From assembly GCA_015069185.1 (NCBI GenBank), contig SVJB01000001.1, positions 62,001 to 126,000 on the forward strand: 64,000 nt of DNA, in the 5' to 3' direction. Of this stretch, positions 17,972 to 40,924 are shown one piece after another (the first letter of the stretch is position 1; every line of letters begins with the position of its first letter). The notes below the pieces were generated by a model. The model had not been told where the DNA came from. It worked only from the letters and a program-made list of their open reading frames with translations, and made no database searches. This stretch comes from Oscillospiraceae bacterium (lineage in GTDB: Bacteria > Bacillota > Clostridia > UBA1212 > UBA1255). The position numbers and the translations under genes were made by a program.

Positions 17972-18787
17972 TTAGTGCACTGTGCTCATTCTGTATTGTG
18001 TTGGTGTGGTCTTTTCGTGATATTTAAAATATTTAAAGAAAAGATTTACATCATCCCAACCTAGCATTTGTGATATTGTAGCAACGGGCAAGTCAGATGT
18101 TTGCAGTAGACGCTTTGATAAATTGATTTTTTCTTTATTAATAAATTCTTTTATAGAGCACCCATATTCTCTTTTGAAAACACGACAAAGATAATCTTTG
18201 TTGTATTTTAATATTTCACTTATTTCTGTAACTGTAATAGGTTGCATAACGTGGTGCAGAATATATGTACGCACCTTTTCAGCTAATTGCAACTGTTCGC
18301 TATGTCCGATTGACAGACGCTTTAATGCTCTGATAATAAGAAGCAACCAGGCATCATTATAGCAATTATTTGAATTTACAGTTTTACATTCATTATAGAG
18401 TTCGGTTAGAAGAGCCTCTAATGATTCGGCTTCGTTAAGTAATAAATAATTATCTATTTGAAAAAAGTTAAAGTAATCACATTGAAATTCTAAAGTAAAT
18501 AAAATACATTCATGCATTTCATTGTTCTGCTCGGGAGTACCTTTTATAAACTGATAGGGTGGTATCAACAAAACAGATTTTTCATTCAGGTGAAAAGTCT
18601 GTTTATTCATAGTGATGTCAAATGTACCTTTTTGTGTATACAAGAGAAAAAATCTGTCAAGAAATCTTTGGCGGAATTCAAGACCGTTTTGTAATTGATA
18701 CATGGTAATATCTTCAAAATTAAGACAAGAAGAACACCCTGCTGAATTTTCATAATGATTATAAACAGATTCTTCAACCTTTATCAT
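17972..18787 (-). CDS. AraC-family transcriptional regulator of the fructan locus
   Basis: 271 residues. N-terminal cupin-like sensing domain (about 25-150, FFLLYTQKGTFDITMNKQTFHLNEKS, VLLIPPYQFI), then a C-terminal pair of helix-turn-helix motifs (about 170-268): ITVTEISEILKYNKDYLCRVFKREYG and LPVATISQMLGWDDVNLFFKYFKY, ending in the classic TPTQYR. The start is the ATG complementary to 18785-18787, with AGGAGAG (complement 18795-18801); a longer start at 18847 lacks a good site. It is divergent from the first GH32 operon and is the only regulator in the locus, so it probably acts on the bipartite promoter element found at five local promoters (inference). The sensed ligand is unknown. Confidence 0.9.
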   Translation of the reverse strand: MIKVEESVYNHYENSAGCSSCLNFEDITMYQLQNGLEFRQRFLDRFFLLYTQKGTFDITMNKQTFHLNEKSVLLIPPYQFIKGTPEQNNEMHECILFTLEFQCDYFNFFQIDNYLLLNEAESLEALLTELYNECKTVNSNNCYNDAWLLLIIRALKRLSIGHSEQLQLAEKVRTYILHHVMQPITVTEISEILKYNKDYLCRVFKREYGCSIKEFINKEKINLSKRLLQTSDLPVATISQMLGWDDVNLFFKYFKYHEKTTPTQYRMSTVH

Positions 18788-18853
18788 GTCGTATTCTCTC
18801 CTGGGAAATTTAAGATTTTTCACTTGCGTATAGAAAACAACAAGCACTATAAT
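18786..18853 (+). promoter_or_regulatory. fructan-locus promoter 1 (bipartite AraC-type site)
   Basis: Box 1 ATGTCGTATTCTCTC starts at 18787 and box 2 TTTTTCACTTGCG starts at 18816. The TCG to TCACT distance is 28 bases, one more than at the other four sites. Box 2 overlaps a -35 (TTGCGT, 18824-18829), with TATAAT at 18848-18853. Box 1 also overlaps the ribosome-binding site and reaches the start codon of the divergent AraC gene, so autoregulation is possible. Confidence 0.65.
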
Positions 18854-18904
18854 AATATAGTATTTTCAGAAATAAGCAACAATTTTTTTTTTAGGAGGCT
18901 CTTC

Positions 18905-20524
18905 GTGCTAATACAGAAAAAATATCTTGCGTTGCCATATAATAACGGGATGGTATTAAAGCAAGTATCTTTTATTGAAAACGATATTTTGCAATTTGAC
19001 CTTAAAATCAAGCTTGACTTATTCACTCCTGAATGTTGGGCTTATGTTGATGTAGCGTCGTTAATAGGAAAGGATATAAAGCTGGTATTTACGAATGCAG
19101 AAGCTCCGGGAACTTTGCAATCTCAATTTGTAGCTGAAATTAATGAAAATGAGCAATATCCATATATGCCTGAACAGATTGATGATATTCCAATTGATTA
19201 TAATAATAAATACAGACCATATGTACATTTTACAGCACCATATGGATGGTTAAGTGATCCGAATGGTTTGGTATATGCCGATGGTGTTTATCATATGTTT
19301 TACCAATTTAATCCGGCAGGTGTAGATAAAGAAAATATGCACTGGGGTCATGCAGTAAGTCGCGATTTGTTGCACTGGGAGAATCTTGAAGTTGCACTGT
19401 TTCCCGACGACAAAGGTTTTATTTTCTCAGGCAGCGCTGTGGCAGACAAAGATAATATGATGGGAATTAAAGAACAATATACACCGATAGTGTTATTTTA
19501 TACTGCTGCCGGAGGTACTTCTGAAAGATCAAAGGGAGAACCGTTCACCGTAAGTCTTGCATATTCTGTTGATGGAGGACATACCTTTACAAGATATGAG
19601 GGAAATCCTATACTTCCAAATATAGCAGGTAAGAATCGTGATCCTAAGGTTGTATGGTGTACATCTATGAATTGTTATGTAATGGCTCTTTATTTAGAGG
19701 ATAGTCGTTACTGTCTCTTATCTTCAGAAAATTTAATAGAATGGAAAGTATTTCAGATATTTACGCTACCTGGAGATTCTGAATGTCCTGATTTATATTC
19801 GCTTACCCTTGAGGGTGATAATTCGTGTGAATACTGGGTGTTTAGTGGAGCCAGTGATTATTATTATGTGGGACAATTTCAGGATGGGCAGTTTGTATCA
19901 ACTCAGCCTGTAAAGAAACTTCACTATGGAAAGAGTAGTTATGCTGCTCAAACCTTTTCAAATCTTCCCGGAAGTAGAGTACTTCGCTTTTCCTGGCAAA
20001 GAGTAGAATTCCCACAGGTGCCTTTTAGTGGACAGCTTAGTATTCTGGGAGAACTTAAACTAAAGAATATTGAGAATGAATTATATTTATGTTTATGGCC
20101 GGTTGATGAAATAAATAATATAGCCTACAAGAATCAGGTTTTCAATAGAATTAATATTTCAAAGGATAATGAATTCATACAAGCAGTGCCAAGAGGAGCT
20201 CTTGATATATTCATAGAGGCATCTTATATACCGGGAGCGGTTGTTACTATTGATGTTTTGGGTGTTACAATTACATGTGACATGGTTAGAAATCAATTAT
20301 GCTGTGCAGAGAGTATCTCGCCTATGTCAATAAAACAGAGAAAGCTTCGGTTAAGGATAATTTTAGATAAGAATAGTATAGAGCTTTTCATCGATGACGG
20401 TGAATTCTATATGAGTAACAAGATAATTTGTGATTATAATTTGAACTATCTACGTATGAGAGCAAATAGTGATGTTCTAATTAAAACTCTCAGCATAGCT
20501 CAGTTACAATTGGAGGATATATGA
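18905..20524 (+). CDS. GH32 fructan hydrolase, cytoplasmic
   Basis: 539 residues from GTG 18905, chosen because AGGAGG at 18893-18898 is 6 bases upstream; no signal peptide. An extra N-terminal beta-rich domain (about 1-100) precedes the GH32 five-bladed propeller. The nucleophile Asp118 is in WLSDPNG (most relatives have WMNDPNG), the stabiliser is in NRDPK, and the general acid is in SECPDLY. Other signatures are MHWGHAVSRDLLHWE and FSGSAV. A C-terminal beta-sandwich follows (about 400-539, RLRIILDKNSIELFIDDGEFYM). GH32 enzymes cleave beta-fructosides (sucrose, inulin, levan); linkage preference cannot be read here. It is first in an operon with the kinase (4-base overlap) and the propeller glycosidase. 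Confidence 0.9.
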   Translation: MLIQKKYLALPYNNGMVLKQVSFIENDILQFDLKIKLDLFTPECWAYVDVASLIGKDIKLVFTNAEAPGTLQSQFVAEINENEQYPYMPEQIDDIPIDYNNKYRPYVHFTAPYGWLSDPNGLVYADGVYHMFYQFNPAGVDKENMHWGHAVSRDLLHWENLEVALFPDDKGFIFSGSAVADKDNMMGIKEQYTPIVLFYTAAGGTSERSKGEPFTVSLAYSVDGGHTFTRYEGNPILPNIAGKNRDPKVVWCTSMNCYVMALYLEDSRYCLLSSENLIEWKVFQIFTLPGDSECPDLYSLTLEGDNSCEYWVFSGASDYYYVGQFQDGQFVSTQPVKKLHYGKSSYAAQTFSNLPGSRVLRFSWQRVEFPQVPFSGQLSILGELKLKNIENELYLCLWPVDEINNIAYKNQVFNRINISKDNEFIQAVPRGALDIFIEASYIPGAVVTIDVLGVTITCDMVRNQLCCAESISPMSIKQRKLRLRIILDKNSIELFIDDGEFYMSNKIICDYNLNYLRMRANSDVLIKTLSIAQLQLEDI

Positions 20525-21888
20525 AGACAGTAATAGGTATAGATATCGGAACTACAACAATTAGTATTAGTCTTATTGAGCAGTCCGATGGCAGGGTAGT
20601 TAAAAGTGCTACATATTCAAATAATTCAGGTGTTATTAGCAAAGATTCCTTCTCTGATTTACAGGATCCTGAGATAATATATGATATTGTGTTAAGAGCT
20701 TTGACAGATATTGTCAAAGAATATGAAGTATCCTGTATTGGTATTACAGGACAAATGCATGGTATAGTTTACATAGATAAAGATGGTAATGCAGTAAGTC
20801 CTTTATATACATGGCGGGACGCATGTGGTAATGAGATGTATGAACGCGATAAGAGCTATTGTACGGTTTTATCTGAGAAAACAGGATATTCAATGGCTGC
20901 AGGATTTGGTTGTACAACATTCTACTATCATACAGTGAATCATAGAATTCCTGAAACAGCAGTTAAGTTTTGCACGATACAGGATTACATTGTCATTAAG
21001 TTAGTAAATAAGAAAGAGCCGGTTGTACACATATCTAACGCAGCAAGTTTTGGTATGTTTGATTTAAATAACAAATGTTTTGATTTAAATGCATTTAAAT
21101 CAGCAAATGTTGATACATCTTTCTTGCCGACTGTTACAAAAGATAATATCGTAGTTGGTTATTACAAAGACAGTATTCCGGTCGCGGTGGCTATTGGAGA
21201 CAATCAGGCCAGCTTCTTGGGTTCTGTACAGGACATGGAAAATAGTGTGTTAATTAATATTGGTACAGGTAGTCAGATATCATATATAACAAAAGATATT
21301 GTAAAGTCTTCTTCTTTAGAATCAAGACCTCTTGTCGGAGACTATATGATTCAAGCCGGATCATCATTATGTGGTGGCAGAGCGCTTGCTATTCTTGAAT
21401 CTTTCTTCAGAAAAATTGCTGAAGTAGTTATAAAAGAAAATGTACAGTCTGCATATCCCGGAATAGATGCGTGCATTGAGAAAATGATAGTACAAGATAA
21501 TTATAAAGAAAAAAACAGTCTTAAAATATCAACTAAATTTTCCGGAACAAGAAGTAATCCTGATGAAAGAGGATATATTAATAATATTAGTATAGATAAT
21601 TTTACTCCCGAAGATTTGATTGTTGGTTTTCTTAATGGCGCTATTAATGAGCTCTTGGAGATGTATATAATATGTAACTGCAAGCATACGGTTTTGGTTG
21701 GCTCAGGTAACGGATTACGCAAGAATGTTTTACTTAAGAAAATACTGGAAGAAAAGTTTAATATGAAGTTATGTGTTCCGCGTCATAACGAAGAAGCTGC
21801 GTATGGAGCTGCTTTGTTCTCTCTTGTGTGTAGTGGATTCTGTGAAAATATTCATGAAGCTCAAAAGCTTATAGTGTATGAAAAATAA
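20521..21888 (+). CDS. FGGY-family carbohydrate kinase
   Basis: 455 residues. Two actin-like ATPase domains: N-terminal GIDIGTTTISISLIE, GITGQMHGIVY near residue 78, and LYTWRDACG; C-terminal NIGTGSQISYIT near 248, GGRALAILESFF and VLVGSGNGLRKN near 390. GQMHG with TWRD is seen in xylulokinase- and sedoheptulokinase-like members. The operon position between GH32 and another glycosidase suggests that it phosphorylates the released sugar (fructose or a related ketose), but FGGY specificity cannot be assigned by eye. ATG 20521 overlaps the GH32 stop (ATGA), with TTGGAGG upstream. Confidence 0.85.
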   Translation: MKTVIGIDIGTTTISISLIEQSDGRVVKSATYSNNSGVISKDSFSDLQDPEIIYDIVLRALTDIVKEYEVSCIGITGQMHGIVYIDKDGNAVSPLYTWRDACGNEMYERDKSYCTVLSEKTGYSMAAGFGCTTFYYHTVNHRIPETAVKFCTIQDYIVIKLVNKKEPVVHISNAASFGMFDLNNKCFDLNAFKSANVDTSFLPTVTKDNIVVGYYKDSIPVAVAIGDNQASFLGSVQDMENSVLINIGTGSQISYITKDIVKSSSLESRPLVGDYMIQAGSSLCGGRALAILESFFRKIAEVVIKENVQSAYPGIDACIEKMIVQDNYKEKNSLKISTKFSGTRSNPDERGYINNISIDNFTPEDLIVGFLNGAINELLEMYIICNCKHTVLVGSGNGLRKNVLLKKILEEKFNMKLCVPRHNEEAAYGAALFSLVCSGFCENIHEAQKLIVYEK

Positions 21889-23480: not shown

Positions 23481-23546
23481 AAGTCGTGTTTTTTCACTGT
23501 ATTAATCTTTTTTTCACTTGTTAAATAATTGTGAAGAATTTAAACT
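23481..23546 (+). promoter_or_regulatory. fructan-locus promoter 2 (bipartite AraC-type site)
   Basis: Box 1 AAGTCGTGTTTTTTC starts at 23482 and box 2 TTTTTCACTTGTTA starts at 23510; 27 bases separate TCG (23484-23486) from TCACT (23514). The -35 TTGTTA (23518-23523) is inside box 2 and the -10 TAAACT is at 23541-23546 (17-base spacer). It drives the surface protein at 23587. Confidence 0.7.
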
Positions 23547-23586
23547 GTTAATATTAAATAATATATTTTTAGAAAGGAAGATTTAT

Positions 23587-24906
23587 ATGTTTAAGAAAAT
23601 TTGCTGTGTTATGATTGTTCTTGCTATCGCTGTAAGCATGTTTGCTATGCCTTATGCTAGCGCTGCAGAGGGCTTTGACACAAATATGACAGGTTGGACA
23701 GTTCCAGACTCTGTTCTTGATGGTCAGACAAGTTCTGCTTGGACAGAAACAGCAGAAGGAAATGTTTTTGGCGATGGTGGCAAGGACGTTATTAAATCAG
23801 ATGTTGTTGTTGATGGATCTAAGTCATTTACTTATGAGGTTACATTCAAACTGAATGGTGGTTACGGTGCAGGCCTTACTTTTGGTACAAATAACAATGG
23901 TAATTTTAAAGGTGTTGAACTTGGCGGTGGTAACGTATATGGTATGTCAATGAACAACGGTGAATGGGGCGGATTCTGGTCTGGTCCTAATGCTGTACCT
24001 GCTGCAGAAGATGATATTTATACAATCCGTTGCGAATACGTTCATTCTATGCAATTCTTTGTTGTTTCTGTAAATGGCATTATTTATTTGTTAAATGCTG
24101 ACTTTGGTGGTGGAGTCCTTGCAGGTAACTTAGGTTTATATGCAGAGGATGCTTCAGCTATATTCATCAGCGCTAAATACACAGAAGGCGGTAATGGATT
24201 TAACAACAACATGGGCGAATGGACATTATATGAAGGTGCAGATGTTACTAATTTCCCGGCTGACTCCGGTAAGAACTGGATGGTTACAGATGATGGATTC
24301 AGCCACTTAGGTTGGGCTAGCGGTGAAGGAACTAGTGGAAAACAGTTTGCTTTCTCCGGTGTGACTGCTGATCCTACAAAGTCATTTAGTGTTGAGTATG
24401 TTCTTAGAAAACAACGCGATACACATGCCGCTGCAATGGTAATTGGATTTACTGATGTAGGCCACTACGTTGCATTCCAGTTTGGTAACGGTTCAAATGG
24501 TGAGTTACTTCTTATGAATTGTAAGACAGAGGGTAGTGAACTGCTTGGCATTAAAACTGATCTTCATAAAACAGCAACAGGCTTTGACGCTGGTACAACT
24601 GCTACACTTAAGCTTTGCTATGATCATGAAACAGGTACAGCAACATTCTACTACAATGGTGAGCTTGCATTTACAGTTGAGAATTTTGATACATCTCTCT
24701 TTAATGGTGGTTTTGGTGTTGTTACAGAAAATGGTCGTTCATACATTCTTTCTGCAACATACACAGAAGTTCAACCAGAGCAGCCTGAGAACCCAGAGCA
24801 GCCTGAGAACCCTGGTGAGAACCCTAACACAGGTGACTTCGGTCTTATCGCTCTTGCTTTTGCTGCAATTTCAAGCGTAGTTCTTAAGAAAAAGAAGGAT
24901 ATCTAA
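23587..24906 (+). CDS. wall-anchored two-module carbohydrate-binding-like surface protein (NPxTG tail)
   Basis: 439 residues from ATG 23587 (AAAGGAAG upstream). A signal peptide ends near YASAAEG. Two related beta-sandwich modules follow: GFDTNMTGWTVPDSV... (about 29-200) and GFNNNMGEWTLYEG... (about 202-395), each with a DxxKSFxxE strand and ending in an xYTE strand. A Pro/Glu linker (repeats of QPENPE) leads to NPNTGDFG, a hydrophobic segment and a Lys-rich tail, a sortase-type anchor. No catalytic domain is present. The modules resemble the one at the N-terminus of the GH32 at 34649, and the fold is reminiscent of CBM66 fructan-binding domains, so binding of fructan at the cell surface is inferred. 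Monocistronic, with a strong terminator. Confidence 0.75.
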   Translation: MFKKICCVMIVLAIAVSMFAMPYASAAEGFDTNMTGWTVPDSVLDGQTSSAWTETAEGNVFGDGGKDVIKSDVVVDGSKSFTYEVTFKLNGGYGAGLTFGTNNNGNFKGVELGGGNVYGMSMNNGEWGGFWSGPNAVPAAEDDIYTIRCEYVHSMQFFVVSVNGIIYLLNADFGGGVLAGNLGLYAEDASAIFISAKYTEGGNGFNNNMGEWTLYEGADVTNFPADSGKNWMVTDDGFSHLGWASGEGTSGKQFAFSGVTADPTKSFSVEYVLRKQRDTHAAAMVIGFTDVGHYVAFQFGNGSNGELLLMNCKTEGSELLGIKTDLHKTATGFDAGTTATLKLCYDHETGTATFYYNGELAFTVENFDTSLFNGGFGVVTENGRSYILSATYTEVQPEQPENPEQPENPGENPNTGDFGLIALAFAAISSVVLKKKKDI

Positions 24907-25110: not shown

Positions 25111-26571
25111 ATGGAGTGCATTTATCGTCCTAAAATACATTTTACGCCGGAAAAGAATTGGATGAATGATCCTAACGGTCTTGTTTATGATGAAACAACA
25201 TGTATTTATCACTTATTTTTCCAATACTGTGATTCTCTTATAGAAGACCAATCAAAGAAATTCTGGGGACATGCTATATCAAAAGACTTATGTCATTGGG
25301 AAGAGATCGCCCCGGCAATCTGGCCGGACGGCCTTGGTGGAGCATGGTCAGGTTCTACTGTTATAGATGAAAAAAATACATCGGGATTTTTTGATGATTC
25401 TGTTCCTGCTGGCTCCAGAATGGTTGCTTTTTATACCAGTGCATTTGGAGATATTACATTAGGGTATCAGAAACAATCTATTGCATATTCAAAAAATAAT
25501 GGTAAGACATGGATTAAATACGAGGGTAATCCCGTAATATATGAGACACAGCAAGAGGGTGTTGTGTTTTCAAATCGTGATCCAAAGGTTTTTTGGTATC
25601 CGGATAAGAGCCGCAAGCATGGCGGTTTGTGGATTATGGTCATTGCAGGTATGTGGGCTCGTATCTTCACGTCGGAAAATCTCCGTGAATGGACATTCCA
25701 GGGAGATATAATGTTGCCTGATGGAGTGAGGCATTTAGAATCAGAATGTCCTGATCTTTTCCCCATGTATGTAGATAATAATCCTAAAAATATTAAATGG
25801 GTTTATACAGGTGGTGGACGTTCGTATGTAATAGGTGAACTGGTACGTGAGGCCGATGGTAGATATATGTTCAAACCTGAGACTGACTACATTGCTCCGT
25901 TGGTTGGATGTGATGACATGTACGCAGCACAGTCTTTCTACAATGATCCTAAGGGACGTAGAGTTGGTATATACTGGATGATAGATAAGACAGCCGATCA
26001 GCTTATAGAGGATAATAAGGTATGGGATGGATATCAATCTATCCCGTTAGAGTATAAACTTAAATCTAAAAATAATAGTTTAAAATTATACTTAACTCCG
26101 GTTGGCGAAATCGCAGATATGAGAAGTGATGCTGTGATTGATATTGTAAATAATATAGTTAATGAAAAAGATTTATTAACTGTCTATAATGATGATTCGA
26201 ATTTTCCTGTTGACATGGAAGTAGAACTTGATGTAACAGATTGTAATGAATTTTCTATCTATCTATGGCAAAACAAAGAAAAAAGAACGGTTGTGAAATA
26301 CAATAAAATAAATGAAAAAATATTTCTTGACCGGTCAAACTCCGGAAAGATTAAGTCGGGCATATATGAGATGGCGTTACAACCGACAGAGGAAGGAATA
26401 ATAAAATTACGCATACTGCTTGATGCATCAATCGTAGATGTCTTTGCAAACGACGGAGAAGTAATGTTCAATGCAATCGTCTTTCCTGAAAATAAAGGTG
26501 GCAATATTAACATAGAAGCCACTGATGGTATATTAAAGATAAACAATCTTAAAATATATAGACTTAAATAA
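25111..26571 (+). CDS. GH32 fructan hydrolase, cytoplasmic
   Basis: 486 residues, the compact GH32 size (propeller plus C-terminal beta-sandwich). There is no signal peptide; the catalytic domain begins at once. Nucleophile Asp20 is in NWMNDPNG, the stabilising Asp in SNRDPKVFW, and the acid Glu in ESECPDLFPM. Further signatures are KKFWGHAISKDLCHWEE and AWSGSTVIDEKNTSG. The sandwich has KLRILLDASIVDVFANDGEV. It is related to the two following membrane GH32 enzymes, so the operon holds intracellular and extracellular versions. GGAGGAG lies directly before ATG 25111. Preference for sucrose, inulin or levan is not readable. Confidence 0.92.
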   Translation: MECIYRPKIHFTPEKNWMNDPNGLVYDETTCIYHLFFQYCDSLIEDQSKKFWGHAISKDLCHWEEIAPAIWPDGLGGAWSGSTVIDEKNTSGFFDDSVPAGSRMVAFYTSAFGDITLGYQKQSIAYSKNNGKTWIKYEGNPVIYETQQEGVVFSNRDPKVFWYPDKSRKHGGLWIMVIAGMWARIFTSENLREWTFQGDIMLPDGVRHLESECPDLFPMYVDNNPKNIKWVYTGGGRSYVIGELVREADGRYMFKPETDYIAPLVGCDDMYAAQSFYNDPKGRRVGIYWMIDKTADQLIEDNKVWDGYQSIPLEYKLKSKNNSLKLYLTPVGEIADMRSDAVIDIVNNIVNEKDLLTVYNDDSNFPVDMEVELDVTDCNEFSIYLWQNKEKRTVVKYNKINEKIFLDRSNSGKIKSGIYEMALQPTEEGIIKLRILLDASIVDVFANDGEVMFNAIVFPENKGGNINIEATDGILKINNLKIYRLK

Positions 26572-26595: not shown

Positions 26596-28323
26596 ATGAA
26601 AAGAATAGTATGTTTATTGTTGTTATGCATACTTCTTATTGGGAGTATGATTGTGGTACAGGCGAGGGATCCTGAATATGATCAGGAATATCGCCCTCAG
26701 TTTCATTATACACCAAAGGCAAACTGGATGAATGATCCCAATGGCCTTGTTTATAATGAGGAAACAAAGGAATATCACATGTACTATCAATACTGTCAAA
26801 CACTAGAAGAAGATCAGAATAAAAAATATTGGGGACATGCAGTATCAAAAGATCTTGTACACTGGCAGGAGCTTCCTGTTGCAATAGGACCTGATGAACT
26901 TGGTAGTATTTGGTCTGGTTCAGCTGTTATAGATAAGAAGAATACATCAGGTTTATTTGATGATAAAACACCTGAAGGAGCTCGTATGGTAGCTCTCTTT
27001 ACGTATGCAGGCGGAGATAGCAAATATGGTTTTGAGAAAGTAGGACTTGCATACTCAAAAGATAATGGTTTGACTTGGACAAAGCATGAAGGTAATCCTG
27101 TTATAGCAAGTGTTGAGAATAATACTATTGTTTTTGATGGCGCATTTCGTGATCCAAAAGTAATTTGGTATGAGGATGATAGTTATGAGAATGGTGGTAT
27201 ATGGCTTATGGTCATTGCCGGAGGCGAGGCAAGAATTTTCACATCCGAAAACCTTATTGATTGGACATATAACAGTACAATGAAAAAAGCAGATGGGAAA
27301 GAAATACAATCAGAGTGTCCTGATTTCTATCCTCTTGAAGTTGAAGGTTCCGGTGGGAAAATCAAATGGGTATACAGTGCAGCCGGCAGAAGTTATTATG
27401 TAGGAGATCTGACTAAAGATTCAAATGGTTATTTCAGATTTACTGCGGATAACAACGAACAGGTTTTAATGAGATTACCAACTGATATGTATGCTGCACA
27501 AACATTTTTTAATGATCCTAAAGGTCGTAGAATTGCTGTGTATTGGATGTTGGATCTAAGCTCCAAAGAACAGAATAATTTAAATGAAAAGCTTTGGGAT
27601 GGTTGTCAATCTTTGCCTCTTGAGATGAAGCTTGTGCAAACTGATGACGGTCATGAACTTAGAGTATATCCTGTTGAAGAACTTGACTCTTTGATAAGTG
27701 ACAAGTTATTATTTGAATCATCCGGCGATGTTGTAAATGGACAGTATGATAAACTCCAGAACGTAACAGGAGAAAATCTATATATAGAGATTGAACTTCA
27801 GCCAGGAAGTGCTAAATATTTCGATATATATGTACGTGAAGGTGGGGAAGAAAAGACATTAATCAGATATAATAAGAATGCAGGTACAGTGACTATCATT
27901 CGTCGTGACTCAGGTGCTTTTGTGAAAGATAATGTGTCAGTGCAGACAGATCTTAATAGTGATGGTAATATTAAACTGAAAATATATGTAGATACATCCG
28001 TAGTAGATGTTTTCACAGACACAGGTGCATATATACAGGGTCTTATATTCCCGGCAAAGACATCTACCGGTTTACATATGGAAACAAAGAATGGAGATAT
28101 GACGGTTAAATCCATAAAGATTTATGAAATGAACTCTGCATGGGATGAGGTATCTATTAATGATGATACAGCAACTCATGAGCCTGATGATACAAATGAT
28201 GATGCTAACGATGGTTTTCCTGTTTTGTATATAATATTAATTATTGCAGGTGCTATAGTGATTGTAGCTATTATAGTTATCGTGATGTGTATAGTTGTAA
28301 AGAAGAAGAGAGGAATATTATGA
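26596..28323 (+). CDS. GH32 fructan hydrolase, secreted and membrane-anchored
   Basis: 575 residues. The signal peptide (1-23, cleavage near VVQA) is followed by GH32: Asp47 in ANWMNDPNG, FRDPKVIWYEDDS, and SECPDFYPLEV as the acid motif. The C-terminal sandwich (about 370-520) is followed by an acidic linker (THEPDDTNDDAND). A single membrane segment (about 542-567, VLYIILIIAGAIVIVAIIV) precedes a VVKKKRGIL tail. The enzyme should face outward, held at the membrane. It lies 24 bases after the cytoplasmic GH32, and its TGA overlaps the next start (ATGA). Likely an exo-acting fructanase or beta-fructosidase; mode not provable here. Confidence 0.92.
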   Translation: MKRIVCLLLLCILLIGSMIVVQARDPEYDQEYRPQFHYTPKANWMNDPNGLVYNEETKEYHMYYQYCQTLEEDQNKKYWGHAVSKDLVHWQELPVAIGPDELGSIWSGSAVIDKKNTSGLFDDKTPEGARMVALFTYAGGDSKYGFEKVGLAYSKDNGLTWTKHEGNPVIASVENNTIVFDGAFRDPKVIWYEDDSYENGGIWLMVIAGGEARIFTSENLIDWTYNSTMKKADGKEIQSECPDFYPLEVEGSGGKIKWVYSAAGRSYYVGDLTKDSNGYFRFTADNNEQVLMRLPTDMYAAQTFFNDPKGRRIAVYWMLDLSSKEQNNLNEKLWDGCQSLPLEMKLVQTDDGHELRVYPVEELDSLISDKLLFESSGDVVNGQYDKLQNVTGENLYIEIELQPGSAKYFDIYVREGGEEKTLIRYNKNAGTVTIIRRDSGAFVKDNVSVQTDLNSDGNIKLKIYVDTSVVDVFTDTGAYIQGLIFPAKTSTGLHMETKNGDMTVKSIKIYEMNSAWDEVSINDDTATHEPDDTNDDANDGFPVLYIILIIAGAIVIVAIIVIVMCIVVKKKRGIL

Positions 28324-31130
28324 AAAAAATTCAAAGGTTTGTTTTTATAGCAATTTTTATTTTGATAACAATATGTGCTTTGGTATATGCCAGTGCAGCG
28401 GAAGGAGATAATAACATGTCATATGAGTATATTACAAATATACAGCTTGTTGATGGACAGTTAAAAAAACTTGATGTTACTAAAGGTAATTATGTGATAA
28501 CAGAAGTTCCTTACTCTATGGAAAAGGCAGAATTTATTATTGATGCTGTAGATGGGACACAATTAACATTTAATAATAACGTAATTAATGCAGGAGAGAA
28601 AACAAGTCCTGTAGAGCTTAATCTTGGTAATACAGTATTTACCGTAAAAGCAACAAAAGATGGTAAAACAGAGAAGGTTATTATCACAGTTAAAAGATTG
28701 CAGGATCCTGATCTTTTATATAAAGAAACATATAGACCTCAATTCCATAATTCTCCTCAAATGTTTCTCATGAATGATCCCAATGGACTTATTTATAATG
28801 CAGCAACAAAGGAATACCACTTATATTATCAATATGCAGCAAACTTAATTCCAAATGAAGAAACAAAAGTATGGGCTCACGCAGTATCTAAGGATCTTGT
28901 ATATTGGGAGACTCTTCCCATTGCAATTTATCCGGATGAATTTGGTGAAGCGTACTCTGGTTCTGCTGTGATTGATTATAAAAATACATCAGGATTATTT
29001 GATGAAAACACACCGCCGGAAGCAAGAATGGTTTTATTCTATACATCCTACTCAGGAAAGTTTGGTAATGGCGCATATGGTGATCAATGTCAGAGCATGG
29101 CATATTCTTTAGATAATGGTGTTACATGGATTAAATATGAGAATAATCCTGTTATAAAAAATGATAGAAATAAATATAGCGGTGGATTCAGAGATCCCAA
29201 GGTTATTTGGTACGAAGATAGCAGTTATGCTAATGGCGGTATATGGCTTATGGTTGTTGCCGGTGGAGATGCAAGATTATTTACATCGGAAAACCTTATC
29301 GATTGGGAATATAATGGCGTGCTTAGATATGAAACAAATGGTCCTATCAATACGGAATGTCCTGATTTCTTCCCGATGGCAGTAAATGGTGATCCTAATA
29401 ATATTAAATGGGTATACATGGGGTCAATATATAACGGAGGCAACTGTAGAGTTATATTTGCTGTAGGAGATTTTGAAAAGAGAGCAAATGGCAAATTTGG
29501 ATTTAAAGCTGATTTTTCAAAGAAAGATATATCTGTAAATGGTAATAATCAGGTTTATTCACAACAAACATTCTTTAATGATGCCAAAGGACGTCGTATA
29601 GCCATTAACTGGATATGGGATTGGGTTTCATTTGATAATTATGAGACAGGGAATGTTAAGAACTGGCTCGGTGTACATACTTTACCGGTAGAGCTGAAGC
29701 TTGTATATGAAAATGGTGAATATGATATACAACAGGTCCCTGTAGAAGAACTTAAGAAACTTAGATTTGATGAACCGATTTATAGCACAGAGAATAAGGT
29801 TGTTGCACCTGGTGATAAAAATATTTTAGATGGTGTTACAGCAGATCTTTATGAGATTGAAGCTACTTTTAATCCGGGTAATGCAACAAAATTTGGATTT
29901 AAACTTTGTGTTGGCAGTGAGCACCAAACTCTCGTATATTATGATGCTCAGGCAAAGCAACTTGTGCTTGACAGAACCAACTCCGGTATTGCAATGAGTG
30001 ATGGCGGTCCCGTTATGAAAGTAGATATGAATCCTACAAAAGATAATAAGATACAACTCAGAGTGTTTATTGATACATCAATCATTGATATTTACGGTAA
30101 CGATGGTATGGCTGTCATTAACACCCAGATATATCCTGGCACAGATGCTAAGAATATGGTATTTTTTACAGAAGGTGATAGTGTTACAATAGAATCACTT
30201 AATATTTATAAATTAGATTCAATTTATTTTAGTCAATTAAACGAAGAAGGAGATAACATGGTAGACGATAAAACACCTGTACCAAAAGATGATATTAAGA
30301 AAAGTAATAATAAAATGATACCGATTATTATTGCGATTGTTGTGTGTGTATTAGTAATAGCAGGAATTATTATTGTAATTACATTAAAAAATAAAGGAAA
30401 TAATAATCCAACACCAACTATTTCACCATCAATTGCACCGACAGCTACTGATGATAATGGTACAGATAAGAAAACAACTATGTTTGAGTTACCTGCTAAT
30501 GCTCGTGGTAAAGCCTTCTGGGAAGACAAGAAAATGGCAATACTAGGTGATAGCATTACAGCTATGAATGGATTTCAAAGTTTACTCAGAGAACTGACAG
30601 ATTTGAAATTCATATATAATAATGACAGATACGCAATCAGCGGTACACAGCTTACGGGTACTACGATGCCATTTACAGAAAGAGCTCCGGAAATAACAAA
30701 AAGTGCAGGAGTTATTATGGTATTTGGCGGTACAAATGATTTCCATGTAGGTGCACCTCTGGGAACTATTAATGATCCTGCCGGTACAGATACATTCTAC
30801 GCTGCTTTGAGAAAAGTGTGTGAATCATTCAAACAAACTCATCCTGATGCAGTAGTATTCTTTGCGACTCCACTGCAAAGATCACATGCTCCCGGAAACG
30901 GTTCGACAGAAGGCATTAATGCTGCAGGTCTCACTCTTGAAGACTATGCGAATGCAATTATAAATATATGTACTGAGTTTGAATATCCTGTACTTGATTT
31001 ATATCATACAAGTCAAATTACTAAAGAAACAGCAGATAATTATCTGTTTGATGGATTACATCCAAATACTGAGGGCTTTGCTGTTCTTGGTAAAGAAATT
31101 GCAAAATTTATGTGTCCTGACGAGGTTTAA
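28320..31130 (+). CDS. GH32 fused through a membrane segment to an SGNH esterase
   Basis: 936 residues from ATG 28320 (AGAGAGGA upstream); a longer start at 28287 is rejected. Order: signal peptide (1-27), cadherin-like beta-sandwich (about 30-130, ending VTVKR-like), GH32 with Asp153 in FLMNDPNG, GGFRDPKVIW and TECPDFFPM, C-terminal sandwich to about 640, membrane segment about 666-690 (IPIIIAIVVCVLVIAGIII), KNKG, a Pro/Thr linker, and an SGNH domain (nucleophile Ser745 in LGDSITAMNG, GGTNDFH, LHPNTEG). With a cleaved signal peptide and a stop-transfer segment, GH32 would be outside and the esterase inside the cell, which is unexpected. An esterase could remove acyl groups from decorated fructans or sugars; substrate unknown. 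Confidence 0.88.
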   Translation: MKKIQRFVFIAIFILITICALVYASAAEGDNNMSYEYITNIQLVDGQLKKLDVTKGNYVITEVPYSMEKAEFIIDAVDGTQLTFNNNVINAGEKTSPVELNLGNTVFTVKATKDGKTEKVIITVKRLQDPDLLYKETYRPQFHNSPQMFLMNDPNGLIYNAATKEYHLYYQYAANLIPNEETKVWAHAVSKDLVYWETLPIAIYPDEFGEAYSGSAVIDYKNTSGLFDENTPPEARMVLFYTSYSGKFGNGAYGDQCQSMAYSLDNGVTWIKYENNPVIKNDRNKYSGGFRDPKVIWYEDSSYANGGIWLMVVAGGDARLFTSENLIDWEYNGVLRYETNGPINTECPDFFPMAVNGDPNNIKWVYMGSIYNGGNCRVIFAVGDFEKRANGKFGFKADFSKKDISVNGNNQVYSQQTFFNDAKGRRIAINWIWDWVSFDNYETGNVKNWLGVHTLPVELKLVYENGEYDIQQVPVEELKKLRFDEPIYSTENKVVAPGDKNILDGVTADLYEIEATFNPGNATKFGFKLCVGSEHQTLVYYDAQAKQLVLDRTNSGIAMSDGGPVMKVDMNPTKDNKIQLRVFIDTSIIDIYGNDGMAVINTQIYPGTDAKNMVFFTEGDSVTIESLNIYKLDSIYFSQLNEEGDNMVDDKTPVPKDDIKKSNNKMIPIIIAIVVCVLVIAGIIIVITLKNKGNNNPTPTISPSIAPTATDDNGTDKKTTMFELPANARGKAFWEDKKMAILGDSITAMNGFQSLLRELTDLKFIYNNDRYAISGTQLTGTTMPFTERAPEITKSAGVIMVFGGTNDFHVGAPLGTINDPAGTDTFYAALRKVCESFKQTHPDAVVFFATPLQRSHAPGNGSTEGINAAGLTLEDYANAIINICTEFEYPVLDLYHTSQITKETADNYLFDGLHPNTEGFAVLGKEIAKFMCPDEV

Positions 31131-33073: not shown

Positions 33074-34435
33074 ATGAAAAGAAAAAGTAATATGATAATA
33101 GCAATAACATTGTGTTTATGCTTAATGTCTGTTTTGTTTTCAGGGATATCTGTATCTGCTGACAGCGGTTTTGATACAAATATGACCGGATGGACAGCAG
33201 CTGATGGTACTACCTGGACCAATGACGAGACAGGATATTGGAATGGCAAATATGACGAAGATAGTTCTACATCCAACTATAAACACCTGGCAAAGAGTGA
33301 TACTGTGATCAGTCGTGATAAATCTTTCACATATGAAATACAGTATCAGTTTGATGGATATGGTGTAGGTCTTGCTTTAAATGTTGTTGACAGAAATAAT
33401 TTCTATGCAATTGAAATTAACTGCGACAAAAATGTTTATACTCCAAAAGTAGAAAATGGTACTTGGGGATTATTTGGACCAATGGAAAGTGTTGCTACAG
33501 ATGATCAAATTAGTAGCGAGACAGTTCATACGATGTTATTTGATTATGATGCATCTACCGGCGGTGCAAAGGTTTTCGTTGATGGCACAGAAACAATAAC
33601 ACTTGTATATGTTCCTGATTCAGCGTTTGGTAACTTAGGTCTGTACTATGAAGATGGTGAGGCAAGATTTATTAAGGCTACTTATACAGAAAAAGAAAGC
33701 GGAGAAGGTCCTGCTACTCCTACAACATCCTTTGAAACAAATATGGGTGAATGGTCTTCTGCAGACGGTAGCGAATGGAAAGAAACAGTTAATGGATACA
33801 GTTGTGTTGGTAGCTCAAGTGGCAGACATGTAGCTATGTCATCTATTGAAGTTGATGGTACAAAATCTTTTGAATATGAGCTTACATTTAAATATAGTGG
33901 ACATGGTGCAGGTATGGCATTTGCAGTGGTAGATGCGGCAAATGTAGCTGCGATTGAGATTAATAGAGAAAGTAGATTATATTTTCCTATACTTACTGAT
34001 GGTATTTGGGGTACATTCTATTCGGATGGTCAGAACTTATCATCTGCACAAATGGAAGCTGAATATCATACTCTTAAATTTATTTATTACGCACAGGACG
34101 AAGCTGCAGAGGTATATCTTGATGACGAACTTATGCAGGAAATTTGGTTTGACGATTCATCAGTGATTAGCGGTAAGCTTGGTGTACATCATGAAGATGC
34201 TACAGTTTACTATACAAAAGCTATTTATACTGAGATTGAGGATCCTACACCGGCTCCTACACAAGTACCTACAGCAACACCTGAAGCTACAGAAGTTCCT
34301 GCAACAGAAGTACCTGCTACAGATGCTCCGACAGAAGCACCTGCAAAGAAGGACGGCGGATGTGGATCTTCTTCAGCTATCGCACAGATAATGTTAATTT
34401 TAGGTGCAGCTCTTATTATAAAGAAAAAGAAATAA
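33074..34435 (+). CDS. two-module carbohydrate-binding-like surface protein with CGS C-terminal tail
   Basis: 453 residues. The signal peptide ends near ISVSADS. Two homologous beta-sandwich modules follow: GFDTNMTGWTAADG... (about 32-210) and SFETNMGEWSSADG... (about 218-390), sharing KSFxYE, the HTMLF/HTLKF strand, GNLGLYYED/GKLGVHHED and xYTE. They match the modules of the protein at 23587. A Thr/Pro/Ala linker with ATEVPATEVPAT repeats leads to the tail GGCGSSSAIAQIMLILG, a short hydrophobic segment and KKKK. That tail recurs in the protein at 39581. No catalytic domain; proposed fructan-binding surface protein. ATG 33074 has AAAGGAAGAAG upstream. Own fructan-type promoter and terminator. 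Confidence 0.75.
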   Translation: MKRKSNMIIAITLCLCLMSVLFSGISVSADSGFDTNMTGWTAADGTTWTNDETGYWNGKYDEDSSTSNYKHLAKSDTVISRDKSFTYEIQYQFDGYGVGLALNVVDRNNFYAIEINCDKNVYTPKVENGTWGLFGPMESVATDDQISSETVHTMLFDYDASTGGAKVFVDGTETITLVYVPDSAFGNLGLYYEDGEARFIKATYTEKESGEGPATPTTSFETNMGEWSSADGSEWKETVNGYSCVGSSSGRHVAMSSIEVDGTKSFEYELTFKYSGHGAGMAFAVVDAANVAAIEINRESRLYFPILTDGIWGTFYSDGQNLSSAQMEAEYHTLKFIYYAQDEAAEVYLDDELMQEIWFDDSSVISGKLGVHHEDATVYYTKAIYTEIEDPTPAPTQVPTATPEATEVPATEVPATDAPTEAPAKKDGGCGSSSAIAQIMLILGAALIIKKKK

Positions 34436-34648: not shown

Positions 34649-37225
34649 ATGTATAGAAAAATTAATTTTAGAATTGTATGGATTGGAATTATTATTATGT
34701 TGGGATTATTTTGTGGAAATGTTTTTGCTAAAAACAATATTAGTATATCCGGAGGTAATTGGAAGGAAGTAGAAAACGGATATGAAGCAAAAAACAAAAG
34801 TTTCGGAGATCAGTTTTTATTAACAGATACATATGTTGATGGAACAAAATCTTTTATATTTGAATGCAGAGTAAAGTTCACAGGAAATGCTGTGGGTGTA
34901 GTATTTGGTGCGGCAAATAAAAACAGGCCGTCTAATAGTTGGTATTGTTTGAACTTAGAAAGACCAAGTTCGGTATCAAGAGCATTTTTTGTACGAGGAG
35001 GATTGGCGTGGAATATAACAACAGGTGTTTCACAAGAATTATTGTCTCGGAATACTAATCTGCTCAGAGTAGTGTTTATTGCAAATGACTCAATTAGCTT
35101 TTACGTTGATGAAACACATATCGGAACATACCCAGCAAAGGATTTTGTTGGCGGATATTTAGGCGTCATGACTTGTTATGCAGATTGCACCTTTACTGAT
35201 ATGACATATCAGGAATTTGATGCTGACAAAGTCAATTCCATAGAATTTTTAAATGTTGAATTTGATAAAGAATACACGCCTGATTATATAGAATATTTAT
35301 CATATGTTGATTACTCTGTTGAAGATCTAAGATTCAAAATGGAATACCCGTCATCTATAGATATTACAATTATCGGAGAAGACGGAATTGAAGTACAAGC
35401 TACATCCGGAAAAGAAATTAGTATTCCACTTCAAATTGGATATAACAAAGTGACCATATCAAAAACATACAACATTAATGATGAAATAAAATCATCTTCT
35501 GTAATATACCTTAATGTACACAGAGCTCAAAAGGATTCACTCTTATATAATGAATCATATCGTCCTCAATTACATTATTCATCTAAGACGGAGTGGATTA
35601 ATGATCCGAATGGGATGATGTACAATAGCGCTACAGGAGAGTATCATCTTTTCTATCAATCTAGACCAAGAACATCTGCGTTTGATCCAAATCAATGTTG
35701 GTATCATGCTGTATCAAAAGACCTGATACATTGGGAACAAATTGAGCCGGCAATAGAACCGGACAATCTGGGCTTTTGTTGGTCAGGATCAGGTGGTATA
35801 GATGTTAATAACACTTCAGGTTTTTTTGATGAGGATTCAGATCCCGCCAGCAGAATGGTAATTATATATTCGTCTGTTTATGGTGATACATATTATGGCG
35901 TTGAGAAAATAAGTCTTGCATATTCCAAAGATAATGGCAAGACATGGATTAAATATGATGGAAATCCAATTATTAAGAACGGTTCTAACCATCAGCAAAA
36001 ATATACAGATGGCTTCAGAGATCCCAAACTCATATGGTATGAGGATAGTTCATATGAAAAAGGTGGAATATGGATTATGCTGGTAGGTGGCGGACAGGGA
36101 AGACTGTTTGTTTCTGAAAACCTTGTTGACTGGACATACCAAAGTGCATTAGTTGGCGTAGATAAGAAAGCCCTTCATGGTGAGTGTCCAGATTTCTTTA
36201 AAATATCAGTTGAAAATGAACCCGGTGTTGAGAAATGGGTATATGTAAGTGGACAGGTTGATTTAAATACAAATCCACAAATTTTCCAGACTTCAGCTGT
36301 TGTAGGACATTTAGAGAAAAATCAACGTGGAAAATTTGTTTTTGTTGCAGAACAAGATCTAAAACAAATTTTTTATGGCGGTAACACTATGTATGCAACA
36401 CAAAGTTTCCATACAACAGCAGATGGCAGGCGCATTCAGATAAGTTGGCTTCGTGAATGGATGGAAAATACAGGTATTAATCTTAATGATCAGGATGTAA
36501 AAGATTGGAACGGATTGATGTCATGGCCAATGGAATTAAAACTTTATAATGTTGATGGTAAATACATATTTAAGAGCTATCCAATTGAAGAAATGACAAA
36601 ATTAAGAAGTGATACAATCTTTTCAAAGGATAGTATTACGATAACTCCTGAAACAAAAAATATTTTTTCGAAAATACAAGGGAAATATAGTGAAATTGTT
36701 GTAAAAGCAAATATAAGTAAAGCTGGCTCTGTTACTTTTAAACTAAGAGAAGGAGAGAATGGTTCTGTAAACGTAATTATATCAGATTATGACGCGGCTT
36801 CCGGAACAGTAAAAGTTACTGCTGATGGTTCTATGTCAGGTAAACATAAGGGTAATTCAGCTAGTGTTATTACTTCAGCAAAGAACGGAGAAATTACATT
36901 ACGTATGGTTGTTGATAACAACTGTATAGATGTTTATTGCAATGAAGGAGAGAATTCTGTTTATGCACTTGCTTATCCGGATCCGGATAATACAAAACTT
37001 AGTTTGTCGGTTAACAGTGGAGAATTACAAATAGAGTCAATTAAAGTATACGAACTGGAATCTATTTGGAAAAATGAGAAATCCGTAGATGATACAACAC
37101 CTGATGATAATGATAAACAAGAATCCGGTATGAATATTATGAAGTATATTATTGTCGGAGTGATATGTACTTTCGTTTTAATCGTTGGTGGTGGTAGTAT
37201 ATATTTTATCAAAAAGAAAAAATGA
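34649..37225 (+). CDS. multidomain GH32 fructan hydrolase, membrane-anchored
   Basis: 858 residues. Signal peptide (about 1-28, ending NVFA), then a module like those of the two surface proteins (about 30-190, GGNWKEVENGYEAKN, VDGTKSFIFECRVKF, GGYLGVMTCYAD), a cadherin-like beta-sandwich (about 195-290), GH32 with Asp319 in EWINDPNG, GFRDPKLIWYEDSS and GECPDFFK, and a C-terminal sandwich. A membrane segment (about 830-852, YIIVGVICTFVLIVGGGSIYF) precedes KKKK. It should act outside the cell, with its binding module holding polymer. The ribosome-binding site is odd: AAAGGA at 34623-34628 is 20 bases from ATG 34649 and no in-frame upstream start exists. Last gene of the fructan locus, followed by a terminator. 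Confidence 0.9.
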   Translation: MYRKINFRIVWIGIIIMLGLFCGNVFAKNNISISGGNWKEVENGYEAKNKSFGDQFLLTDTYVDGTKSFIFECRVKFTGNAVGVVFGAANKNRPSNSWYCLNLERPSSVSRAFFVRGGLAWNITTGVSQELLSRNTNLLRVVFIANDSISFYVDETHIGTYPAKDFVGGYLGVMTCYADCTFTDMTYQEFDADKVNSIEFLNVEFDKEYTPDYIEYLSYVDYSVEDLRFKMEYPSSIDITIIGEDGIEVQATSGKEISIPLQIGYNKVTISKTYNINDEIKSSSVIYLNVHRAQKDSLLYNESYRPQLHYSSKTEWINDPNGMMYNSATGEYHLFYQSRPRTSAFDPNQCWYHAVSKDLIHWEQIEPAIEPDNLGFCWSGSGGIDVNNTSGFFDEDSDPASRMVIIYSSVYGDTYYGVEKISLAYSKDNGKTWIKYDGNPIIKNGSNHQQKYTDGFRDPKLIWYEDSSYEKGGIWIMLVGGGQGRLFVSENLVDWTYQSALVGVDKKALHGECPDFFKISVENEPGVEKWVYVSGQVDLNTNPQIFQTSAVVGHLEKNQRGKFVFVAEQDLKQIFYGGNTMYATQSFHTTADGRRIQISWLREWMENTGINLNDQDVKDWNGLMSWPMELKLYNVDGKYIFKSYPIEEMTKLRSDTIFSKDSITITPETKNIFSKIQGKYSEIVVKANISKAGSVTFKLREGENGSVNVIISDYDAASGTVKVTADGSMSGKHKGNSASVITSAKNGEITLRMVVDNNCIDVYCNEGENSVYALAYPDPDNTKLSLSVNSGELQIESIKVYELESIWKNEKSVDDTTPDDNDKQESGMNIMKYIIVGVICTFVLIVGGGSIYFIKKKK

Positions 37226-39544: not shown

Positions 39545-39580
39545 ATTATTAAGTTATTGTTGAATACAGGAGGGCTTTTT

Positions 39581-40924
39581 ATGAAGAAGAAAATAATTCT
39601 TTTTGTCTTTGTTGTTTCAATATTTATCATATTTATTATGTCGGCAACAATGTATGCAAATGCTACTACAGCGATACCGGAGTCCATGAAGCATGGCTCA
39701 AATGAAGCATTAGTTCCTCTTTATGCCGGAGCAGAGAGTGCAGTCCCTATGTCAACTGATGATGTGGTTTCTGCGCAATTCTCAATATCTGCTGATGTGA
39801 CTTTTGTGGGTGTTAGTTGTCCTAGTTGGAGTGACAACATTGGTGATATGACTGTTACACTATACAAGTTTGATAAAGATTATGAAACCACAATAGCGGG
39901 AGAGCCAATTTCATCAGAAATATTTGAAGGCTTTGGAGATAATAATTTATTGGGATTTAACTTTGAAGAAAATGATCCTCTCAAAGCGGGCGAGTATGTA
40001 ATCAGGCTTACAGATGCATTTGATTCAGGAGGATCCGGAGTAGGTGTTTGGAAACATGGAGCATACGCAGGACAGATTTATTATGTTAATGATATGCCTG
40101 TTGAGGATTCATCTTTACGTATAGAGGTATTGTTTGTACAAAATCCGGAGGGAGAGCCCTATGGGCCACTCACAAGAGATTCATCTACAGGAGAGATTAA
40201 CAAATTGCCTGATATTGATAATATGATTATTTTCAATGATGAAGAAATGCTTGAACTTATAACTCCTGGCGTTGGATGTCAGAATTTTGAAATTGTTGAT
40301 GGTTACCTCAGAATAAATGTTACACCTGCCAGTGACTCGCAATTTGTAATAAATATGCCTTATTGGGCAAATAAATATTTGTCTTGCGAAGAATATGGCG
40401 CGATGTTGGTGAAAATGCGTGTGTCAGAAGGAGCCCCACTTACGGGAGAAGTATTCTTCTCTACATCAACTTTCCCGGGACCAGCTGCCGGAGGTTCAGT
40501 AACCGCAACATATAAAAATACAACTGATTGGCAATATGTAATATTTAACTTTAACTCCAACGGCAAATATTCACAGCCAGGTGCTATACTTAATAAAATA
40601 AGATTTGATCCTTTTACCACTGAAAATCAAGATGCAGTGATTGATATTGAATATATTTTATTCTTTACAAATAAGGAGTCTGCTCAGGCTTGGGAAGGTG
40701 TCTTTGATTTTATTACACCGTCTCCCACGCAGGCCCCTAGCACACCGACACCACAAATAACACAAGCTCCGGCAACTGAGATCCCGGCGACGGCGGCTCC
40801 AAGTACAGATGCGCCTCCGACATCACAGAACAAGTCAAAATCGGGTGGTTGTGGATCATCAAGCGCTATAGCACAGATTATGCTGATCCTTGGCATAGCA
40901 CTTATTATTAAGAAAAAGAAATAA
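39581..40924 (+). CDS. secreted surface protein with CGS C-terminal tail, function unknown
   Basis: 447 residues from ATG 39581 (AGGAGGG upstream). Signal peptide to about residue 27 (ATMYANA). Two beta-rich domains: about 28-180 (VVSAQFSISADVTFVGVSCPSW, MTVTLYKFD, AGEYVIRLTDAF) and about 200-380 (MIIFNDEEMLELITPG, YLRINVTPASDSQFVI, WQYVIFNFNSNGKYS), the latter like a carbohydrate-binding jelly roll. A Thr/Pro/Ala linker with APATEIPATAAP leads to SGGCGSSSAIAQIMLILG, a hydrophobic stretch and KKKK, nearly identical to the tail of the protein at 33074, although the remainder is unrelated. No catalytic motif is seen. Flanked by terminators, so monocistronic. Confidence 0.7.
   Translation: MKKKIILFVFVVSIFIIFIMSATMYANATTAIPESMKHGSNEALVPLYAGAESAVPMSTDDVVSAQFSISADVTFVGVSCPSWSDNIGDMTVTLYKFDKDYETTIAGEPISSEIFEGFGDNNLLGFNFEENDPLKAGEYVIRLTDAFDSGGSGVGVWKHGAYAGQIYYVNDMPVEDSSLRIEVLFVQNPEGEPYGPLTRDSSTGEINKLPDIDNMIIFNDEEMLELITPGVGCQNFEIVDGYLRINVTPASDSQFVINMPYWANKYLSCEEYGAMLVKMRVSEGAPLTGEVFFSTSTFPGPAAGGSVTATYKNTTDWQYVIFNFNSNGKYSQPGAILNKIRFDPFTTENQDAVIDIEYILFFTNKESAQAWEGVFDFITPSPTQAPSTPTPQITQAPATEIPATAAPSTDAPPTSQNKSKSGGCGSSSAIAQIMLILGIALIIKKKK

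Follow-up and report, generated by a model that had tools for sequence, protein, structure and literature searches.

The locus studied here raises the question of on which side of the membrane an SGNH esterase lies when it shares one open reading frame, and one hydrophobic segment, with a GH32 enzyme that carries a signal peptide. By standard topology rules, a hydrophobic segment that follows an exported domain stops transfer and leaves the downstream part in the cytoplasm. The domains themselves are known; their arrangement is unusual and, judged by sequence comparison, has arisen by gene fusion, and no published report of a GH32–TM–SGNH arrangement was found in the searches made of an open-licence library.

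Composition of the fusion protein

The fusion gene and its parts in the window (the whole stretch of 64,000 nucleotides that was analysed) are listed in Table 1. The order given in the initial annotation, namely signal peptide, GH32, hydrophobic segment, KNKG, Pro/Thr linker and SGNH, was borne out by the open frame, Pfam, hydropathy and AlphaFold, and the signal peptide ends at an ASA↓AEG-type cleavage site as read by eye. A cadherin-like domain had also been named; a segment of this kind was found, but its Pfam match (PF12733, 20.0 bits) fell below the curated cut-off of 24.2. The two GH32 domains matched PF00251 at E 2e-62 (212 bits against a cut-off of 22.1) and PF08244 at E 4.7e-30 (105.1 bits against 21.9) respectively. 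The translation contains MNDPNG, FRDPKV and TECPDF, corresponding to the GH32 motifs NDPNG, RDPK and ECPD, whose roles we take to be catalytic. Promoters predicted inside the gene numbered 14 against 17.7 expected, thus no excess, and no terminators were found within it.

Table 1 Features of the fusion gene and of two neighbouring GH32 genes in the window
Feature	Position	Strand	Basis
Upstream GH32, C-terminal anchor; groups with the G005 fused GH32	26596..28323	+	trees
GH32–TM–SGNH fusion gene, 936 aa	28320..31130	+	open frame, translation
Signal peptide, residues 1–27	28320..28400	+	hydropathy; AlphaFold helix 2–26; signal class by eye
Cadherin-like β segment, residues 57–124	28488..28691	+	PF12733, sub-threshold
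GH32 N (143–467) and C (477–631) domains	28746..30212	+	PF00251, PF08244
AAGGAG, Shine–Dalgarno-like, 5 bases 5′ of ATG 30258	30247..30252	+	sequence
Candidate internal in-frame start, Met647, 290-aa anchored esterase	30258..30260	+	SD, duplex energy, openness against 1277 internal ATGs
Hydrophobic helix, residues 667–689	30318..30386	+	hydropathy, biological scale, AlphaFold helix 666–690
KNKG and Pro/Thr linker	30387..30497	+	sequence; alignment with lipoprotein relatives
SGNH/GDSL esterase domain, residues 742–921	30543..31082	+	PF13472, alignment, AlphaFold, PDB match
Sister cadherin-like GH32, C-terminal anchor	34649..37225	+	Pfam, hydropathy, tree

Hydropathy revealed two hydrophobic stretches in the protein, the signal peptide and residues ~667–689. 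AlphaFold, with a 20-row alignment as input, modelled the full chain at pLDDT 83.5, with a single helix at residues 666–690 flanked by disordered residues 640–666 and 690–718. Neither hydropathy nor the full-length model revealed the second membrane crossing that the initial annotation thought it might have overlooked.

The esterase domain matched Lipase_GDSL_2 (PF13472) at E 1.6e-16, and Ser745 (in GDSIT), Asn806, Asp911 and His914 were invariant in all 20 rows of the SGNH alignment; Gly775 was invariant in the six rows of a smaller alignment, but varied in the 20-row one. Modelled alone, the domain reached an AlphaFold pLDDT of 89.3. The closest solved SGNH structures, both approximately 30% identical with the fusion esterase, were PDB 3dc7 (L. 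plantarum Q88SR8; Z 26.6, rmsd 2.2 over 199 aligned residues) and 7bxd (Ca_00815; Z 25.9, rmsd 2.0 over 198). No lipobox was present in the translated fusion protein.

Fused and unfused relatives

The nearest separate homologues of the esterase (L092–L095 and L097) are lipoproteins with a signal peptide and a lipobox, all lipoproteins here and below being assigned by eye. G013 and G015, which come from the family to which the window genome belongs, each have a C-anchored GH32 gene followed 31–33 bases downstream by an SGNH lipoprotein gene (lipoboxes VAGC and LMSC respectively). The GH32, anchor and SGNH types and the gene order are those of the window fusion, but the pair makes two proteins, the esterase having its own signal peptide and lipobox, whereas the window has one frame. 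Two SGNH relatives from Diplocloster are also lipoproteins, and the remoter relatives (approximately 35% identical) are mostly without any signal. A second SGNH copy in G015, again a lipoprotein (lipobox LAGC), is encoded behind a large lipoprotein-like gene and not behind GH32 (L062 1219–3909 and 3953–4684).

The initial annotation had proposed a search of related genomes for the same domain order, and this yielded a second fusion in G005 (JAFZSK010000051.1, water-buffalo rumen MAG RGIG8055), where one 817-residue frame encodes signal peptide, GH32, helix, linker and SGNH. Its domain order is that of the window fusion, but it uses another GH32 paralogue, with no cadherin-like segment seen and no embedded start of the kind described below. 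Because G005 holds this second fusion with an identical order, chance or a frameshift artefact is an unlikely origin of the window frame. The region from the GH32 stop codon through the lipobox is absent in G005 and the linker is retained, and the outcome is the same in the window, where the lipoprotein signal peptide is absent and the linker retained. The unfused genes of G013 and G015 and the fused gene of G005 support the earlier suggestion that an esterase gene was appended behind an existing GH32 anchor. The Pro/Thr linker is as had been described; its extracellular look is most simply explained as that of the inherited post-Cys linker of a lipoprotein, probably a relic, because the unfused esterases are lipoproteins.

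At a minimum of 50% identity, five esterase places were found in 16 genomes of the family, two fused and three as separate lipoprotein genes. In a sample of 391 genomes of the class, whose matching members did not include G013 or G015, the close type of esterase occurred only in the two fused genomes, the next match being at E 5e-41, and among 398 genomes drawn from the phylum only the window's own genome matched at E 1e-40. The search of genome contigs gave 366 relatives, of which the best 80 were retained; from L101 on, those listed were the ones that carry both exact motifs. The only GH32 fusion among the matches listed was L091, which is that of G005; L143 and L158, also among the matches listed, have long upstream parts. 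The viral contigs searched gave distant SGNHs only.

Phylogenetic trees put the fused GH32 of G005 in one group with the C-anchored GH32s of G013, G014 and G015 and with the window GH32 at 26596, and placed the fused GH32 of the window elsewhere. A clade of the two fused GH32s was rejected (p-AU 3.8e-55), as was a clade of the two fused SGNHs (0.026). Constraining the fused GH32 of the window to the G005-type clade was also rejected (p-AU 0.0095); when 26596 was counted in that clade, the value was a borderline 0.047. The final GH32 tree omitted five rows that had long branches in the first. Since the two fusions involve distinct GH32 paralogues, two separate origins are probable, and a signal peptide and anchor were kept in both. 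There may, instead of two fusions, have been a swap of the GH32 part under an old fusion. A single ancestral fusion with later splitting is disfavoured by the GH32 tree (p-AU 0.047 for its weakest form).

Comparison of the fused esterase of G005 with the separate one of G013 gave a dN of 0.097 and a dS of 2.48, the latter near saturation. The lineage-specific amino-acid changes were 8 (fused) against 7 (separate) with G015 as the outgroup, and 5 against 12 with the window as the outgroup. The G005 lineage shows no acceleration; thus, as far as these substitutions tell, constraint on its esterase is not visibly relaxed by fusion and is the same as on the separate lipoprotein.

Orientation of the helix and a candidate internal start

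We propose that a C-anchored extracellular GH32, a fructan or β-fructoside hydrolase, would have been joined in frame to a neighbouring SGNH lipoprotein gene, a join that would have removed the GH32 stop codon together with the signal peptide and lipobox of the lipoprotein and kept the linker and catalytic domain of the esterase. The full-length chain would then undergo ordinary single-pass insertion, its signal peptide being cleaved and helix 667–689 stopping transfer, and the esterase, cytoplasmic and membrane-adjacent, would deacylate imported sugar esters. That the full-length chain is two-sided in this way, with GH32 outside and the esterase inside, is in our view the most likely reading, although the chance of its being right is only about even. 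The same placement had been made in the initial annotation from the standard rules, and it holds as a prediction, there being one helix only. We infer the topology, activity and substrate of the fusion protein throughout.

Several observations are in favour of the two-sided chain: the unfused pairs of G013 and G015, the G005 fusion, the single AlphaFold helix, probably two fusions each with signal peptide and anchor kept, and the dN/dS and lineage-specific changes of the G005 esterase. The segment had been likened to the C-terminal anchors of the sister GH32 enzymes at 26596 and 34649; both of these anchors are real, and the window helix is equally hydrophobic. The anchors of both fusions are intact and match those of unfused sisters in hydrophobicity: on a biological scale with home-made weighting, the window helix scored −6.98 against −7.57, −1.88 and −3.20 for sister C-terminal anchors, and the G005 helix −3.97 against −4.08, −2.29 and −2.01. 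Lysines directly follow the helix in both fusions. A cleavable signal and one stop-transfer-like helix are both present in the window chain, but the charge pattern is weak, with four lysines in the 15 residues before the helix and two after it, unlike the C-anchored proteins, all ten of which had three to six Lys/Arg after the helix in the stretches examined. Also against a two-sided chain, the esterase is most closely related to exported lipoproteins, and the unaltered constraint in G005 is not what a move to another compartment would lead one to expect. A second cytoplasmic SGNH looks redundant, and the extracellular one would have been lost, because both fused genomes retain a separate SGNH without a signal peptide (G000 C52 and G005 19025–19801). 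Helix-plus-linker stretches of other genomes, weak matches picked for their resemblance to that of the window, had a cytoplasmic-type part before the helix and a Pro/Thr linker after it in four of five frames. A composition classifier for cytosolic against exported proteins (91 and 31 proteins respectively; leave-one-out AUC 0.96) gave the window SGNH −1.06, above the fitted cytosolic maximum of −1.8, a score that reflects ancestry and base composition and so points to neither side; the cytosolic GH32 at 25111 scored −1.95, and lipoprotein SGNHs from elsewhere ranged from −3.2 to −5.3.

ATG 30258 lies 20 codons before the helix in an open stretch. Its predicted product would consist of 19 residues with four lysines, the helix, the linker and SGNH, and because the GH32 signal peptide is absent from it, the helix would act as an N-in signal anchor. 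The background was the 1277 internal in-frame ATGs of 170 genes called in the window and in ten further stretches of the genome; the thresholds were the site's own values, set post hoc, and the called starts are partly selected for a Shine–Dalgarno (SD) sequence. An SD run of at least six preceded nine of the 1277 internal ATGs. A duplex as strong as that at 30258 was found for 12 of them, compared with 55 of 169 called starts (and for 3 of 492 in a GC-matched set), and a site at least as open for 1.3% and 8.3% respectively. Strength and openness coincided at one internal ATG, 30258 itself, and at three of the 169 called starts. The SD sequence at the fusion gene's own start, 28320, is weaker than that at 30258, and none of nine candidate starts ahead of the helix in five further C-anchored proteins had an SD run of at least four.

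These figures, together with the lysines that precede the window helix, speak for the leading rival, a tentative reading in which the one frame makes two proteins, ribosomes also starting at ATG 30258 to give an N-in anchored esterase outside. The location of the lipoprotein may, just as tentatively, thereby be restored, with the full-length chain as a second product. There is a precedent in Ms6 lysA, where an inner gene (lysA241) starts in the same frame as the longer gene from its own ribosome-binding site (PMC3111421); that case was proven experimentally and does not concern topology, whereas the window start is a sequence signal alone. The site was noticed post hoc, and G005 has no equivalent, its pre-helix ATG 8000 being without an SD sequence and its TTG 8087 having GGAGG at one base. 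Chance hits do occur: of the nine ATGs with such an SD run, one falls within the GH32 domain encoded at 26596 and is surely no start. Three other C-anchored proteins have three Lys/Arg before the helix and also real lysine tails, and the closest relatives are too distant for a comparison of conservation. That the candidate start rescues a trapped esterase, one helix serving as stop-transfer in the GH32 product and as signal anchor in the esterase, seems to us rather unlikely.

Exported ancestry, the inherited linker and the unchanged constraint in G005 would suit an arrangement with both domains outside, the segment passing the translocon, sitting in a secreted complex or being joined by a second crossing. 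We regard this as very improbable, since the segment equals true anchors in hydrophobicity and neither hydropathy nor AlphaFold gave a second hydrophobic stretch. AT3–SGNH acyltransferases (OatA and OafB) also link SGNH to a membrane part, but there an extra 11th helix carries SGNH outside (PMC9833829), whereas the window fusion has a single helix after an exported domain, with no AT3 domain among its Pfam hits. An accidental, tolerated fusion that strands the esterase inside with little use is improbable too: the locus seems fusion-prone, GH32 and FGGY kinase being fused in G005 and G015 and separate in the window, and neighbouring genes overlap, but the catalytic residues are intact, dN/dS is low, the G005 lineage is not accelerated and there were probably two fusion events. 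If the esterase of the full-length chain is inside, unrelated active sites of one enzyme would face opposite sides of the same membrane; such an enzyme, probably formed two times from a pair of external proteins, would mean that gene fusion had moved an esterase to another compartment. Should the embedded start be used, a single helix would occur in two opposite orientations. Under either reading the question can be tested on the matched relatives, fused and unfused, and if neither is true the window would hold a fusion that is tolerated in a locus prone to such events.

Genes around the fusion

Pfam identified GH32 genes at 18755, 25111, 26596 and 34649 near the fusion, an FGGY kinase at 20521, a weak GH43-like match at 21901, and Ig-like domains with a sub-threshold GH130 match in the protein at 31152. 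The locus looks like one serving a fructose-containing glycan; this substrate is one we infer, because none of the nine locus proteins scanned reached a curated NCBIfam cut-off, the BfrA and ScrB matches included.

GH32 and FGGY kinase form one frame in G005 and G015 (L059 8862–11978; L061 4101–7154, − strand) and two overlapping genes in the window (18755–20524 and 20521–21888), and G013 has an FGGY-like frame without GH32 (L060 9472–10968). The GH32 at 25111–26571 has no signal peptide, yet its composition score (−1.95) is close to that of exported proteins, which would suit a fairly recent loss of export. Three exported surface proteins (23518–24906, 33074–34435 and 39557–40924) end in one of two ways, with a PNTGD sortase-like C-terminus or with a GCGSSSAIAQIMLILG type that has KKKK at its end, and the first of the three proteins has a sub-threshold laminin-G match.
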